A stretch of DNA of 64,000 nt from an uncultured Flavobacteriales bacterium (lineage in GTDB: Bacteria; Bacteroidota; Bacteroidia; Flavobacteriales_D; Crocinitomicaceae). The position numbers and the translations under genes are program-made. A model generated the notes under the pieces. That model did no database searches, had not been told where the DNA came from, and worked only from the letters and a program-made list of their open reading frames with translations. Below, in pieces: positions 51,296 to 57,211 of this stretch; the first letter of the stretch is position 1, and the number at the start of each line of letters is the position of its first letter. The DNA lies in assembly GCA_913054135.1 (NCBI GenBank), contig CAJXJK010000001.1:62001-126000 (forward strand). Direction: 5' to 3'.

Positions 51296-51763
51296 TTAAC
51301 TTGCTTTCTTTAAAGACGCGCGTTCTGCCTTATTTTTTGCAGATAATGCTTTCACTTGATTTTTCTTAACCTCTTTAATTTGCTCAGGTGTAGGCATCTT
51401 AATGGTTAACTGAGCACTTTCTTTTCTTTTTTGCTTTGCGTTTATGAGTAAAACCTCATTCACTTGAATCTCGGTCATCCTTTTATTCAGACCATCATTC
51501 CCTCTAAAGAGTCTATTAACCAGCTTGCCATCAACCGCCATGAGCTGTCCTTTTTTGACGAATTTCTCAATGAGTTCAGCTTTCTTTCCCCAAGCGACAA
51601 TGTTATGCCATTGGGTTTCTTTTCTCTTGCCATTGACTTCTAAATAAGTTGAAGAAGTGGCCAAGGAGAATTTTGCTAGTTTGACTCCGTTTTCAAATGT
51701 TCTTATGATTGGCGTATTTCCGGCTCTGCCGATTAAGTTTACTGCGTTTTGTAATTTGTTCAT
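51296..51763 (-). CDS. ssb: Single-stranded DNA-binding protein, basic tail
   Basis: NLIGRAGNTPIIRTFENGVKLAKFSLATS, KRKETQWHNIVAWGKKAELIEKFVKKGQLMAVDGKLVNR. Confidence 0.9.
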   Translation of the reverse strand: MNKLQNAVNLIGRAGNTPIIRTFENGVKLAKFSLATSSTYLEVNGKRKETQWHNIVAWGKKAELIEKFVKKGQLMAVDGKLVNRLFRGNDGLNKRMTEIQVNEVLLINAKQKRKESAQLTIKMPTPEQIKEVKKNQVKALSAKNKAERASLKKAS

Positions 51764-51766
51764 TTT

Positions 51767-51815
51767 GTTTCGTGTTTCGTGTTTCGTGTTTCGTGTTTCG
51801 TGTTTCGTGTTTCGT
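51767..51815. repeat. Tandem heptanucleotide repeat (GTTTCGT)x7
   Basis: Seven perfect 7-bp units read directly from sequence; fills the spacer between SSB start and four-helix-bundle stop. Confidence 0.97.
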
Positions 51816-52180
51816 TACTTAAATGTGTTGGATTGCTGGTGATTAATAAAACCGCTCAAAATCATTTTACCTCTTTGAATGTTAAGCAAAGAAATTTCAA
51901 ATGCTGCATCCCCGATAAAACCGAATTCTTTAGCCAAGATTAATTGGCATTCGACTTCATATAAGGATCCTCTTGAAATGTAGAAGAAGCGAAGTCTGTC
52001 TTTTCTATGTCTTCTTCCGCAGCCCTCGGCCAAATTTGAAATCGTTGAAACGGCAGCCCTTCGAATTTGAGAAGTTAATCCGAATCGTTCATCCTTCGGA
52101 AACAACCTTGTGTTTGCATAAATCATTTTATTGACTTTGAGCAGTTGAGTCCAAACATCTAATTTTTTAAAATCATCCAT
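51815..52180 (-). CDS. Four-helix-bundle protein (23S rRNA intervening-sequence/Avd-like family)
   Basis: FKKLDVWTQLLKVNKMIYANTRLFPKDERFGLTSQIRRAAVSTISNLAEGCGRR...FFYISRGSLYEVECQLILAKEFGFI. Confidence 0.92.
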   Translation of the reverse strand: MDDFKKLDVWTQLLKVNKMIYANTRLFPKDERFGLTSQIRRAAVSTISNLAEGCGRRHRKDRLRFFYISRGSLYEVECQLILAKEFGFIGDAAFEISLLNIQRGKMILSGFINHQQSNTFK

Positions 52181-52277
52181 ATTCAATTGGTTTATTCGAA
52201 CGGAAGGCAATAGTCGTATCCCTGAGTTGACTGTCCGAAAACGAATCACGGAATACGACATTGTCTCCCCTACACAT

Positions 52278-52634
52278 CTAATTCTCAACTACCTCTTGCT
52301 CTTTATTCCCCAACATCAAAACCTCACTTACCACAACCTCAGTTCTGAACCTCTTCTCTCCTTCTTTCGTCTCATATGAACGAGTGACTAATTTTCCTTC
52401 AACTGCGATTTCTTGCCCTTTCTTAATATACTTTTCAAAGACGTCTGCTTGTTTCCCCCATGCAGTTAATGAATGCCATTGTGTTTCTTGAACTTTTTCG
52501 CCTTGTGCGTTTTTATAAAAATCATTAGTTGCCAACCTTACTTTTGCCAACTTGTTTCCGTTTTCAAATGAAACTATCTCTGGAGCTAATCCTAAGTTCC
52601 CGATCAATTGTACTTTGTTTCTTAAATTATTCAT
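52278..52634 (-). CDS. ssb: Single-stranded DNA-binding protein, short form
   Basis: NKVQLIGNLGLAPEIVSFENGNKLAKVRLATNDFYKN, TQWHSLTAWGKQADVFEKYIKKGQEIAVEGKLVTRSYE; start corrected to ATG 52634. Confidence 0.9.
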   Translation of the reverse strand: MNNLRNKVQLIGNLGLAPEIVSFENGNKLAKVRLATNDFYKNAQGEKVQETQWHSLTAWGKQADVFEKYIKKGQEIAVEGKLVTRSYETKEGEKRFRTEVVVSEVLMLGNKEQEVVEN

Positions 52635-52758
52635 AATGTGTGTTTTTGTGCTCACCTGATTTTGTTTAGTGCGGTTCGCTAGTTTGTAAATAAATGCTTG
52701 TCGTTTGTTTCGACATGGCAAAGGAATGACATCTTCAAATCAACAACCGTACTTTAAC

Positions 52759-53588: not shown

Positions 53589-55718
53589 ATGAAAAACTTA
53601 ATTTCTGTCATTGCCATACTCGCATTGAGTATAAGCAGCTTTGCCCAGCTGAGCGAAGATCAACAACAATATGTTGACTCTCTGAAACTTGACATTGAAA
53701 ATGCTACTCATGACACTACTCGAGCTGATCGATACCTAGGAATCTCAACTGTGTATTATTTAAATTCTCAGGGCGGTACCGTCTTCAGAGATATGGCTAC
53801 TAAAGCCCGAGAAATATCCGAAGAGAATCTAGCCAAAGAGATTTCACCTGCTGAACGAACCAAATTCTCATCCATACTTGCGGATGCAATAAATGCCATA
53901 GGCCTCCATCATTATTCAATAGGTGAAATAGAAGAAACTGAAAAGCTATTACTTCAGGCCGCCTCCATTCATTTTGAAAACAAGGATTACAGCAATCTTC
54001 TCACGATTTTATTCAATCTATCTGCTATGCATTCAGGAGTAGAAGACATTCCGAAATCAATGCAATACCTTGAAGTCGTAATTGAAATCGCACAAAGCAA
54101 AGAAGGTAGAAATGAAATGATTTTAGCTACGGCCTTGGCTCAAATGGGGCATGACACCTACTCTATTGACCCACAACTCTCGCAAAACTATCATCAAGCT
54201 TCTTATGATTTATTTGTAAGAACAGATGACAAACATGGACAGGCCCGACAACTTTTAAACTTAGGAGACCTACAGGCTGATCAAGAGAACTACAATAGCG
54301 CTCTAGAGTTCTACGAGCAGGCCCTAACCTTATCGATTGAAGATGGTGACAAGGTGAGCGAAATTTGGACTTATGCTTCTATGTCTGACATCTATGTGAA
54401 AACTGATACAGCACTTGCGATTTCATTCTATCAAAAAGCTCTCAGCATCAGTAAATCAATTGAACACACCGACATGATTTTGAGTAATCAAAATAACTTG
54501 TCAGAACTATACCTTGAAAGCGACTTTGATTCTTCAAAGTACTATGCTTACTTGAATGTGGATCTTTTAAATGATTATCGCGCAAGACCAGGAACTCAGC
54601 ATAAAATCAGTCGAATTTTAACTGAGGTGTATGAAAGAGATGGCAGATTTAAAGATGCTCTTAAAGAGCACAGAAAATACATCTCTTTAAAGGATAGTTT
54701 ATTTAATATTGAAAATAAGCAAGAAGTAATTCAGCAAAATTTGAGTTATGAGTACGCCACAAAGAAAGCCGTAGATGATAAAGAGAATGAAAAGAAGTTG
54801 GCTATTGAACGTAAAGACAAAGAAAAGCAGACGGTTATTACTTGGGCTGCCTCTGTCGGATTACTATTGTTACTGGTGTTCTCAGTTTTTATTTTTAACC
54901 GATTCAAGGTAACAAGTAAACAAAAAGTAGTAATTGAAGCGCAAACTCATCAAATCGTTGAGAGTATTAATTATTCTCAAAGGATTCAAAACTCTTTACT
55001 ACCTCAATTGGATGACATTGCTCAATCGTTCAAAAATCTCTTCATTTTTTATGAGCCAAAAGATATAGTATCAGGAGATTTTTATTGGTTTAAAGATTTC
55101 GAAGACCATCAAGTAATGGCTTGTGTTGATTGCACGGGTCATGGTGTTCCGGGCGGATTTATGAGTACAATGGGAAGTCTTTTACTGAACAAAGTTGTTA
55201 CAGGCGAAGAAAGTGATCCCGCAAAACTCTTAGCCACTTTAAATAAAGAAATCATAGAAACGCTTCACCAAGAAAGTGAAGATGGAATTCAAGACGGTAT
55301 GGATCTTTCGATATGTGTAATTGATAAGATTAAGAACCAAGTAAAGTTTTCGGGGGCCCGAAATGGCATAATGCTAATGAGAGAAAATGAGATTATCCGC
55401 TACAAGGCCGACTTGTTACCTGTAGGAGGAAATTATCTTAAAAAGGGGAAACCTATTGAAAGAATATTTAGCACACAGACCATTGATCTAAAGCCCAATG
55501 ACTGGATCTACATGTATACAGATGGATTTATGGAACAGTGCGGCATCTCAGAAAATTTGCCCATGAATTACAATCAGTTTCAAGAGGTATTACTTAAGCT
55601 AAATAGTCAATCTGAAAGGGATGCGAAGAACGAAATATTGAAAAATGATTTTGATGCATGGAGGGGCAGCATCAAGCAAAGTGATGACGTTCTAATAATT
55701 GGATTCCAGAAAAATTAA
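53589..55718 (+). CDS. TPR-TM-SpoIIE (PP2C) serine phosphatase, SiaA-like output
   Basis: TPR repeats; TM VITWAASVGLLLLLVFSVFIF; SINYSQRIQNSLLPQ, FYEPKDIVSGDFYWF, ACVDCTGHGVPGGFMS, DWIYMYTDGFMEQ, SDDVLIIGF. Confidence 0.92.
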   Translation: MKNLISVIAILALSISSFAQLSEDQQQYVDSLKLDIENATHDTTRADRYLGISTVYYLNSQGGTVFRDMATKAREISEENLAKEISPAERTKFSSILADAINAIGLHHYSIGEIEETEKLLLQAASIHFENKDYSNLLTILFNLSAMHSGVEDIPKSMQYLEVVIEIAQSKEGRNEMILATALAQMGHDTYSIDPQLSQNYHQASYDLFVRTDDKHGQARQLLNLGDLQADQENYNSALEFYEQALTLSIEDGDKVSEIWTYASMSDIYVKTDTALAISFYQKALSISKSIEHTDMILSNQNNLSELYLESDFDSSKYYAYLNVDLLNDYRARPGTQHKISRILTEVYERDGRFKDALKEHRKYISLKDSLFNIENKQEVIQQNLSYEYATKKAVDDKENEKKLAIERKDKEKQTVITWAASVGLLLLLVFSVFIFNRFKVTSKQKVVIEAQTHQIVESINYSQRIQNSLLPQLDDIAQSFKNLFIFYEPKDIVSGDFYWFKDFEDHQVMACVDCTGHGVPGGFMSTMGSLLLNKVVTGEESDPAKLLATLNKEIIETLHQESEDGIQDGMDLSICVIDKIKNQVKFSGARNGIMLMRENEIIRYKADLLPVGGNYLKKGKPIERIFSTQTIDLKPNDWIYMYTDGFMEQCGISENLPMNYNQFQEVLLKLNSQSERDAKNEILKNDFDAWRGSIKQSDDVLIIGFQKN

Positions 55719-55723
55719 TTGAT

Positions 55724-56089
55724 TTAAAAAGGTTTAAAATTGAATGGTAAATCTACCATTATCTTGAGCTCTTCTCCTCTTTCAAGTAAAATGTCATTCT
55801 CAGCAGGGTGCAACCAATTCACCTCAGCTTTTAACTTTTCGGCCTCATCAATTGTCATCAACATTTTCAGTAGTTGTTTCGCTGAAGATGAATTGAAATA
55901 TTTTAGATTAAACTCAATGGTGAAACTTCCTTCATTACTAGCAATATAAGCATCAACCCAAGTATGTATCGGACCATAAAAAGTCTCAGCATCCTCCATC
56001 ATTGATTTTCCTGAAATCTCAATTTTACCTGATGTATTCAGAATGACTTTCGGTCCGTATTCAGAAGATTCGATATTAATATTTTCCAT
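55724..56089 (-). CDS. SiaC-family regulatory phosphoprotein (DUF1987)
   Basis: 121 aa; GKIEISGKSMMEDAETFYGPIHTWVDAYI, FNLKYFNSSSAKQLLKMLMTIDE, WLHPAENDILLERGEELKIMVDLPF. Confidence 0.9.
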   Translation of the reverse strand: MENINIESSEYGPKVILNTSGKIEISGKSMMEDAETFYGPIHTWVDAYIASNEGSFTIEFNLKYFNSSSAKQLLKMLMTIDEAEKLKAEVNWLHPAENDILLERGEELKIMVDLPFNFKPF

Positions 56090-56101
56090 TTACTTCTTTC
56101 C

Positions 56102-57211
56102 TTATACTTTTATTTCTAAGCCCATCATCAAGTAATAACCTCCATTATCTTCTGTAGCAATAATATCAATTTTAGAATCTATCGTCCTTTTTAAATCTAT
56201 CAAACCAATGCCGGCGTTATTCCCTTTTTTGAGTACATTTTTTTTCAATGTGGACCTGTAGAGCTCGTTCAATTCGTCTTTCGTTTTCAAATTTAAACTT
56301 TCCACCTTTTGTACAATGTCCAAGCCTTCTTTTTTTATATAATTCCCTGAACACATGTAATACCCTTCCTTTGTATTTAAGATGGCAAAAATCCCATCAT
56401 TTCCATCCTTCTCTTCTTTTCCGTGGCGGACAACATTCTGCATCATCTCAACTGCAGCATGATACAACTGAAATCCTGCTGAATTAGTCTCGGTATTATT
56501 GGTTTCTTCAATTATTGACAGCATTGAACTTATCATATCATCTGAGAAGTCACCATTATATAAAAATGAAATATCGTATTCAAGTGTGCGATCATAAACA
56601 GAAGAATTTTCTTCTATACTCATTGGCTGTTGATCAGATTCTTTTGACAATGAATCATTCTTGAAGTCAATTTGCAAGTTGAATGAGTAAAGCTCCCCTT
56701 TTTTAACAAACTGATGCTGAACAGGATGTTTTGATCTCCTCACCATTGAAACAAACCCAAGTCCTGCACCACCTTTGGCGCTCAGCTCATTATTCATTAA
56801 AGAATCACGATAATATTCGTCTAACTCATCTGAATTTAAACTTTCTATCTTCTTTAAGCTCTTTTCAATTATTTCTTTATCTGCCTCTTCAACCAAGTTT
56901 GAAGAGTAGATATGTAAATAAGAACCTATACTTCTTACTCCGAATAAACTTAATTCATCCTTTTCAGGAACATCCGCTCCATGACGAACTATATTCTGAA
57001 AACTCTCGGCTACAAAAAAAGCCATTCTCCTTCTTGTTTTTCTCTCCAGCTCAAATTCAGCAAGAGTTATTACCCTATCAGTAAAACTATCAGTAAATGC
57101 ACCTTTGTAATAAACAGTTGACCGGTCTTTCTTAAAACAATCCCTCAATTCAGAAACGACATGAATCCTCTCATTTCTTGAATTTTCTTTAGAATTACTT
57201 GTGTTTGACAT
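56102..57211 (-). CDS. Tandem (double) SiaB-like/DUF6272 kinase-fold protein
   Basis: Two halves each with an N-box-like motif (AESFQNIVRHG; VEMMQNVVRHG) and a Gly-rich box (GGAGLGFVSMVRRS; GNNAGIGLIDLKRT). Confidence 0.8.
   Translation of the reverse strand: MSNTSNSKENSRNERIHVVSELRDCFKKDRSTVYYKGAFTDSFTDRVITLAEFELERKTRRRMAFFVAESFQNIVRHGADVPEKDELSLFGVRSIGSYLHIYSSNLVEEADKEIIEKSLKKIESLNSDELDEYYRDSLMNNELSAKGGAGLGFVSMVRRSKHPVQHQFVKKGELYSFNLQIDFKNDSLSKESDQQPMSIEENSSVYDRTLEYDISFLYNGDFSDDMISSMLSIIEETNNTETNSAGFQLYHAAVEMMQNVVRHGKEEKDGNDGIFAILNTKEGYYMCSGNYIKKEGLDIVQKVESLNLKTKDELNELYRSTLKKNVLKKGNNAGIGLIDLKRTIDSKIDIIATEDNGGYYLMMGLEIKV

Follow-up and report, generated by a model that had tools for sequence, protein, structure and literature searches.

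The window (a stretch of 64,000 nucleotides from an uncultured Flavobacteriales bacterium whose 4.05 Mb genome is 98.5% complete) carries three genes between positions 53589 and 57211. A SpoIIE/PP2C phosphatase gene with a SiaA-like role (53589-55718, plus strand, 709 aa) converges on a minus-strand operon in which a tandem SiaB-family kinase (56102-57211, 369 aa) is followed, after a 12 bp spacer (56090-56101), by a SiaC phospho-carrier (55724-56089, 121 aa). The stop codons of the phosphatase and SiaC genes lie tail to tail, 5 bp apart (55719-55723). These positions, strands and gaps agree with the first-pass annotation, and profile searches with Pfam and NCBIfam matched all three proteins to the families it had expected. 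Neither terminator nor promoter signals beyond chance were detected in the region of the 5-bp convergent gap, which is devoid of a terminator-like hairpin. Elsewhere in the window (51296-52721, minus strand), two paralogues of a single-stranded-DNA-binding protein flank, as judged by eye, a gene for a four-helix bundle of the S23 type.

The kinase is a double SiaB-like protein, as had been proposed: both the DUF6272 profile (Pfam PF19788, 2.9e-46) and the SiaB_fam_kinase profile (NCBIfam NF038262, 4.8e-48; 163 bits for a cut-off of 85) match it in two stretches. It is related by sequence to SiaB in the PDB (6kko_A, 1.5e-4). The AlphaFold2 model, built with 60 sequences, is of good quality (pLDDT 88, pTM 0.88) and one half of it superimposes on SiaB 6kko_A with a TMt of 0.82 (Foldseek). 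Domain 1 (approximately aa 33-184; 56660-57115, minus strand) exhibits an E69-x-x-Q72-N73 box, N105 and a GGAGLG lid (aa 147-152). Domain 2 (approximately aa 211-368; 56108-56581, minus strand) exhibits an E255-x-x-Q258-N259 box and N290, while its lid comes down to a single strongly kept glycine, G336. Since the alignment-based scan described below selected on the domain 1 motifs, motif conservation was judged on 42 tandem proteins collected without motif selection. In all 42, E69, Q72, N73, N105, G147, G148, G150 and G152 of domain 1 are invariant. In domain 2 of the same proteins E255 is conserved in 93%, N259 in 98%, N290 in 100% and G336 in 98%; the lid is otherwise relaxed and column entropy is higher than in domain 1. 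The N-box Glu and Asn together with a Gly-rich lid are therefore complete in domain 1, whereas domain 2 keeps the Glu and Asn with a relaxed lid, which suggests that catalysis falls more probably to domain 1, with a regulatory or lesser role for domain 2. Dimerisation of the Pseudomonas SiaB has been mentioned (PMC7278518). The tandem protein is likely to be a pseudo-dimer of two covalently joined halves, of which one does most of the catalysis and the other plays a lesser or regulatory part. A tree of SiaB domains places the 41 first domains together in one clade (98/94), in which those of loci L213 and L242 branch first; the second domains are clustered and are not resolved as a single clade.

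The product of 55724-56089 is a SiaC-like protein according to its Pfam match (PF09345, 1.2e-29; 102.9 bits for a cut-off of 24.5), to its sequence similarity with PDB entries 6kko_C/6k4f (2.5e-8) and to its AlphaFold2 fold, which matches 6kko_D (Foldseek, TMt 0.91, 1.1 Å). This model was obtained within a read-through construct with the kinase, in which the stop codon TAA was read as G; the co-fold is good (pTM 0.75) and carries no interface information. The two minus-strand proteins thus match the SiaC and SiaB folds. Pseudomonas SiaC is phosphorylated on Thr68, within LLYLNTSSIK (PMC7647112). The equivalent position in the window protein is Ser67 (codon 55889-55891, minus strand), within LKYFNSSSAK, and is phosphorylatable; it is the putative phospho-acceptor. 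The nature of this residue follows the type of kinase gene to which SiaC is linked. With identical sequences removed and relatives kept, it is Ser in 71 and Thr in 7 of 78 SiaCs linked to a tandem kinase, Thr in 34 and Ser in 2 of 36 linked to a single SiaB, and Thr in 19, Ser in 3 and Ile in 8 of 30 others. A Ser or Thr acceptor is therefore kept in every kinase-linked SiaC and is absent from some orphan members.

The eight Ile sequences constitute a SiaC group of their own (8/8 members with Ile, in a YFNISS or FFNIAS context), which cannot be phosphorylated at this position. It includes a protein of the source genome (L046:9768-10199, that is C11:45768-46199) together with L284, L286-L289, L292 and L294. 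The source genome gene is flanked on one side by an OmpH/Skp-like gene and on the other by a gene that we read as a BadF-like ATPase, although it has no Pfam hit; the sizes of the neighbouring genes suggest similar settings for its relatives.

The phosphatase carries the SpoIIE (2.7e-15) and TPR_12 (1.1e-19) Pfam domains, in agreement with the TPR-TM-SpoIIE/PP2C architecture first proposed. Its PP2C domain (aa 508-705, approximately nt 55110-55703) is similar to the SiaA PP2C domain (6k4e, 2e-13), and alignment to 6k4e shows that the metal motifs VDCTGHGVPG, TDGF and DD are retained. Reading of the sequence reveals an apparent signal peptide and one transmembrane helix (approximately aa 413-433) preceding the PP2C domain, so the TPRs are probably periplasmic. 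Other module phosphatases carry different sensors: TPR in L172, L229 and L123 as in the window, Reg_prop/Y_Y_Y in L092 and L102, CarboxypepD_reg-like domains in L047, L111 and L247, and a short form in L218. A TPR-based sensor input therefore holds for the window but is not a constant trait: on related PP2C domains, other modules of this kind bear propeller or CarboxypepD_reg-like sensors. The window phosphatase nevertheless falls within one PP2C clade (100/100) with the propeller phosphatases of L092 and L102, which argues that the sensor has been exchanged over a constant eraser.

The tandem SiaB module is ancient and widespread in Bacteroidota and not unique to the window. In this phylum, 121 tandem-kinase loci were collected, which correspond to 63 clusters at 60% identity. 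SiaC occupies the position immediately following the tandem kinase (+1) in 45 of the 63 clusters, so that the tandem-SiaB/SiaC order is recurrent, while SpoIIE is found at +2 in 27 and between -5 and +6 in 36; in these counts a neighbour beyond a contig end is scored as absent. About a quarter of the tandem clusters lack an adjacent SiaC, partly through contig ends. Among the first 42 loci, SiaC lies directly downstream on the same strand in 32, with a spacing of -37 to +21 bp, and a convergent SpoIIE gene comes next in 20. The gap between the SiaC and SpoIIE stop codons has a median of -4 bp (43 module loci) against 27 bp for 126 other convergent pairs (Mann-Whitney p = 0.0015, related loci included). 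Over the 63 clusters no other recurrent neighbour was found beyond local synteny or generic surface-protein genes. RadC/WecB-like genes with a 100-aa protein were considered as module partners and discarded, being confined to the synteny of one family.

Full-length tandem kinases are present in approximately 39 of 199 genomes of the order Flavobacteriales, while SiaB relatives occur in 170 and SiaC in 172 of them. Restriction of the tandem form to this order was considered and rejected: the alignment-based scan found 80 tandem loci in Flavobacteriales, Bacteroidales, Cytophagales and other Bacteroidota, one matching record being labelled Chlorobiota. The corresponding scan of genome contigs with a single protein as query recovered no tandem loci, against the 80 obtained with the alignment. 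In locus L192 a propeller sensor, Y_Y_Y, SpoIIE and both SiaB domains are joined in a single ORF of 1540 aa (L192:2527-7149) followed by SiaC. This fusion ties the phosphatase and the tandem kinase to one circuit. It also places writer and eraser within one protein. Single SiaB domains within longer frames (G329:C18:25252-25728, 1396 aa; G356:C121:63233-63664, 627 aa) may represent further fusions.

The source genome includes 14 SiaC matches (13 besides that of the window), six DUF6272 domains distributed between four proteins (two tandem and two single) and 51 SpoIIE matches (approximately 50 besides the window phosphatase). Compared with four SiaB-family kinases in a 4 Mb genome, 51 SpoIIE/PP2C matches make a strikingly phosphatase-heavy repertoire. 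Contig C17 carries another tandem module (L047), whose genes converge in the same way. The further SiaC and SpoIIE copies indicate that the window module is one channel of a network, in which the number of SiaC (14) and SpoIIE (approximately 50) genes makes crosstalk possible. The phylogenetic trees separate the module from these paralogues. Tandem-linked SiaCs form one clade (96/77), which contains the window SiaC and a single local duplicate; within it the Thr-bearing members L242, L213, L231 and L245 branch first and most others carry Ser. In the PP2C tree the two module phosphatases of the source genome cluster with their counterparts from modules in other genera. A separate clade holds 26 of the 29 source-genome paralogues, along with 4 of the 45 module phosphatases. 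The kinase and SiaC have thus been passed on together as a specific set, separately from the other paralogues of the genome. The phosphatase has mostly accompanied them, though less strictly. Such co-inheritance implies that the channel is insulated and that its core stays constant while sensors can be exchanged.

SiaC-family proteins have been suggested to act on adjacent proteins (eLife 2021, PMC8457831). Since the module has no conserved neighbour besides the phosphatase, the client of its SiaC would be encoded elsewhere. The best surviving alternative, to which we give a small but real share of the probability, is that SiaC has no separate client: its target would be the phosphatase itself or other SpoIIE proteins, a feedback that would make the cassette one layer of a PP2C cascade. 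RsbT acts on RsbU and provides a model for such feedback. The genome's excess of SpoIIE and SiaC matches (51 and 14) over SiaB proteins (4) is consistent with this possibility, as is the position of SpoIIE as the sole conserved neighbour. However, no sign of SiaC acting on a phosphatase was observed here, and the Pseudomonas phosphatase has SiaC as its substrate, the output there being a different protein (PMC7278518). A class III adenylate or guanylate cyclase as client, following the SiaABCD logic with another nucleotide, appears slightly less probable still. The source genome has 4 class III cyclases, and a SiaC gene lies directly upstream of one of them, a TPR-TM cyclase (L056). This SiaC is nevertheless not that of the module, and the adjacency is missing at 29 of 29 other cyclase loci, including six with full-length relatives of the L056 cyclase. 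In only one of the 63 clusters does a cyclase lie near the tandem kinase, behind unrelated genes. This Bacteroidales cyclase, three genes upstream of the kinase and separated from it by a penicillin-binding protein and an oxidoreductase (by eye), was rejected as a partner because its position was taken to reflect local synteny.

Diguanylate cyclases are a different matter. The first-pass annotation had seen no SiaD or other GGDEF protein at the locus, and this observation extends to the whole 98.5%-complete genome, where profile searches with positive controls identified 0 GGDEF and 0 EAL domains. The client is therefore not a GGDEF diguanylate cyclase, and c-di-GMP is excluded as the output of the module, a GGDEF gene in the unassembled 1.5% being the sole escape. 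No co-conserved GGDEF client was found over the 63 clusters, and GGDEF exceeds the cut-off in only 4 of the 199 genomes of the order; c-di-GMP is thus probably not the output of the SiaC family in most Flavobacteriales. Of the approximately 39 genomes that encode a full-length tandem kinase, G183 alone yields a GGDEF match above the cut-off, and this match is weak and partial. An ordinary SiaABCD system, in which SiaC would control a distantly encoded diguanylate cyclase, accords with the homology of the families to the Pseudomonas system but is extremely improbable in a genome with neither GGDEF nor EAL and with G183 as the lone case among tandem-kinase genomes.

The write/erase/carrier switch with a client outside c-di-GMP signalling, as originally proposed, therefore holds by sequence, structure and comparative genomics. 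We estimate at roughly three in four the probability that the locus is a dedicated and insulated SiaABC-type partner switch, with variable envelope sensors and an unlinked client not connected to c-di-GMP. From what is known of these families we infer the kinase action, the phosphatase action and the change of partner; the catalytic motifs are present in the kinase and phosphatase sequences. The covalent SiaB pseudo-dimer would phosphorylate Ser67 of SiaC using ATP, the membrane phosphatase, under the control of a TPR sensor that is probably periplasmic, would strip the phosphate from SiaC, and unphosphorylated SiaC would then bind and control a client protein encoded elsewhere. A broader proposal, to which we give somewhat less than even odds, is that Bacteroidota lacking c-di-GMP run a large SiaC network conveying envelope signals to a new class of clients, with the tandem module as an ancient insulated Ser channel and its kinase as an asymmetric pseudo-dimer.

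In the open literature searched, no paper was found on DUF6272 or on SiaABC in Bacteroidota, and DUF1987 appeared only in the Pseudomonas SiaC-SiaD paper; SiaC-type switches are treated there only as regulators of diguanylate cyclases. Since the write/erase/carrier core is widespread where these cyclases are mostly absent, SiaC must have other clients, a question that the three-protein cassette makes directly testable. Here a three-gene switch known from a c-di-GMP-producing Pseudomonas system has its kinase doubled in one protein and occurs in bacteria without c-di-GMP enzymes. A paralogue-rich genome with both Ser-type and Thr-type SiaCs also provides a natural system for studying how partner switches are insulated.

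The module resembles SiaABCD of Pseudomonas aeruginosa (PMC7278518, PMC7647112, PMC8457831) in its PP2C phosphatase, its SiaB-type GHKL-like kinase and its SiaC carrier, in their folds and in the position of the acceptor in SiaC. Unlike SiaABCD, its kinase is a tandem fusion, its acceptor is Ser, its sensor is TPR, its phosphatase gene is convergent rather than part of the operon, and its genome has no GGDEF client nor any GGDEF or EAL gene. The three proteins also score well under the SiaA, SiaB and SiaC equivalog thresholds (NF038263, 143.8/700 bits; NF038264, 71/225; NF038265, 61.7/150), the SiaA match of the phosphatase being partial. A second point of comparison is the core single-SiaB/SiaC pair of the source genome (C4:233963-234775), in which SiaB likewise lies directly upstream of SiaC in one operon; unlike the window module, this pair has a single kinase domain, a Thr acceptor and no module phosphatase, and it falls in separate clades of the trees. 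Such SiaB-SiaC pairs are near-universal in the order Flavobacteriales, and, within the same family, many genomes have the single SiaB and Thr-type SiaC adjoining coaE, the dephospho-CoA kinase gene (L045:9846-11405 on C4; L250-L283). SpoIIAB/SpoIIAA/SpoIIE and RsbW/RsbV/RsbU are more distant: SiaB and SiaC are families separate from theirs and the 63 clusters show no association of the module with a sigma factor gene, but the GHKL kinase fold, the STAS-like carrier and the PP2C eraser are shared, and weak Foldseek matches to 1l0o and 1til were obtained. Kinase and carrier are members of the SiaB and SiaC families, respectively, and the locus is SiaABC-like, not SiaABCD.
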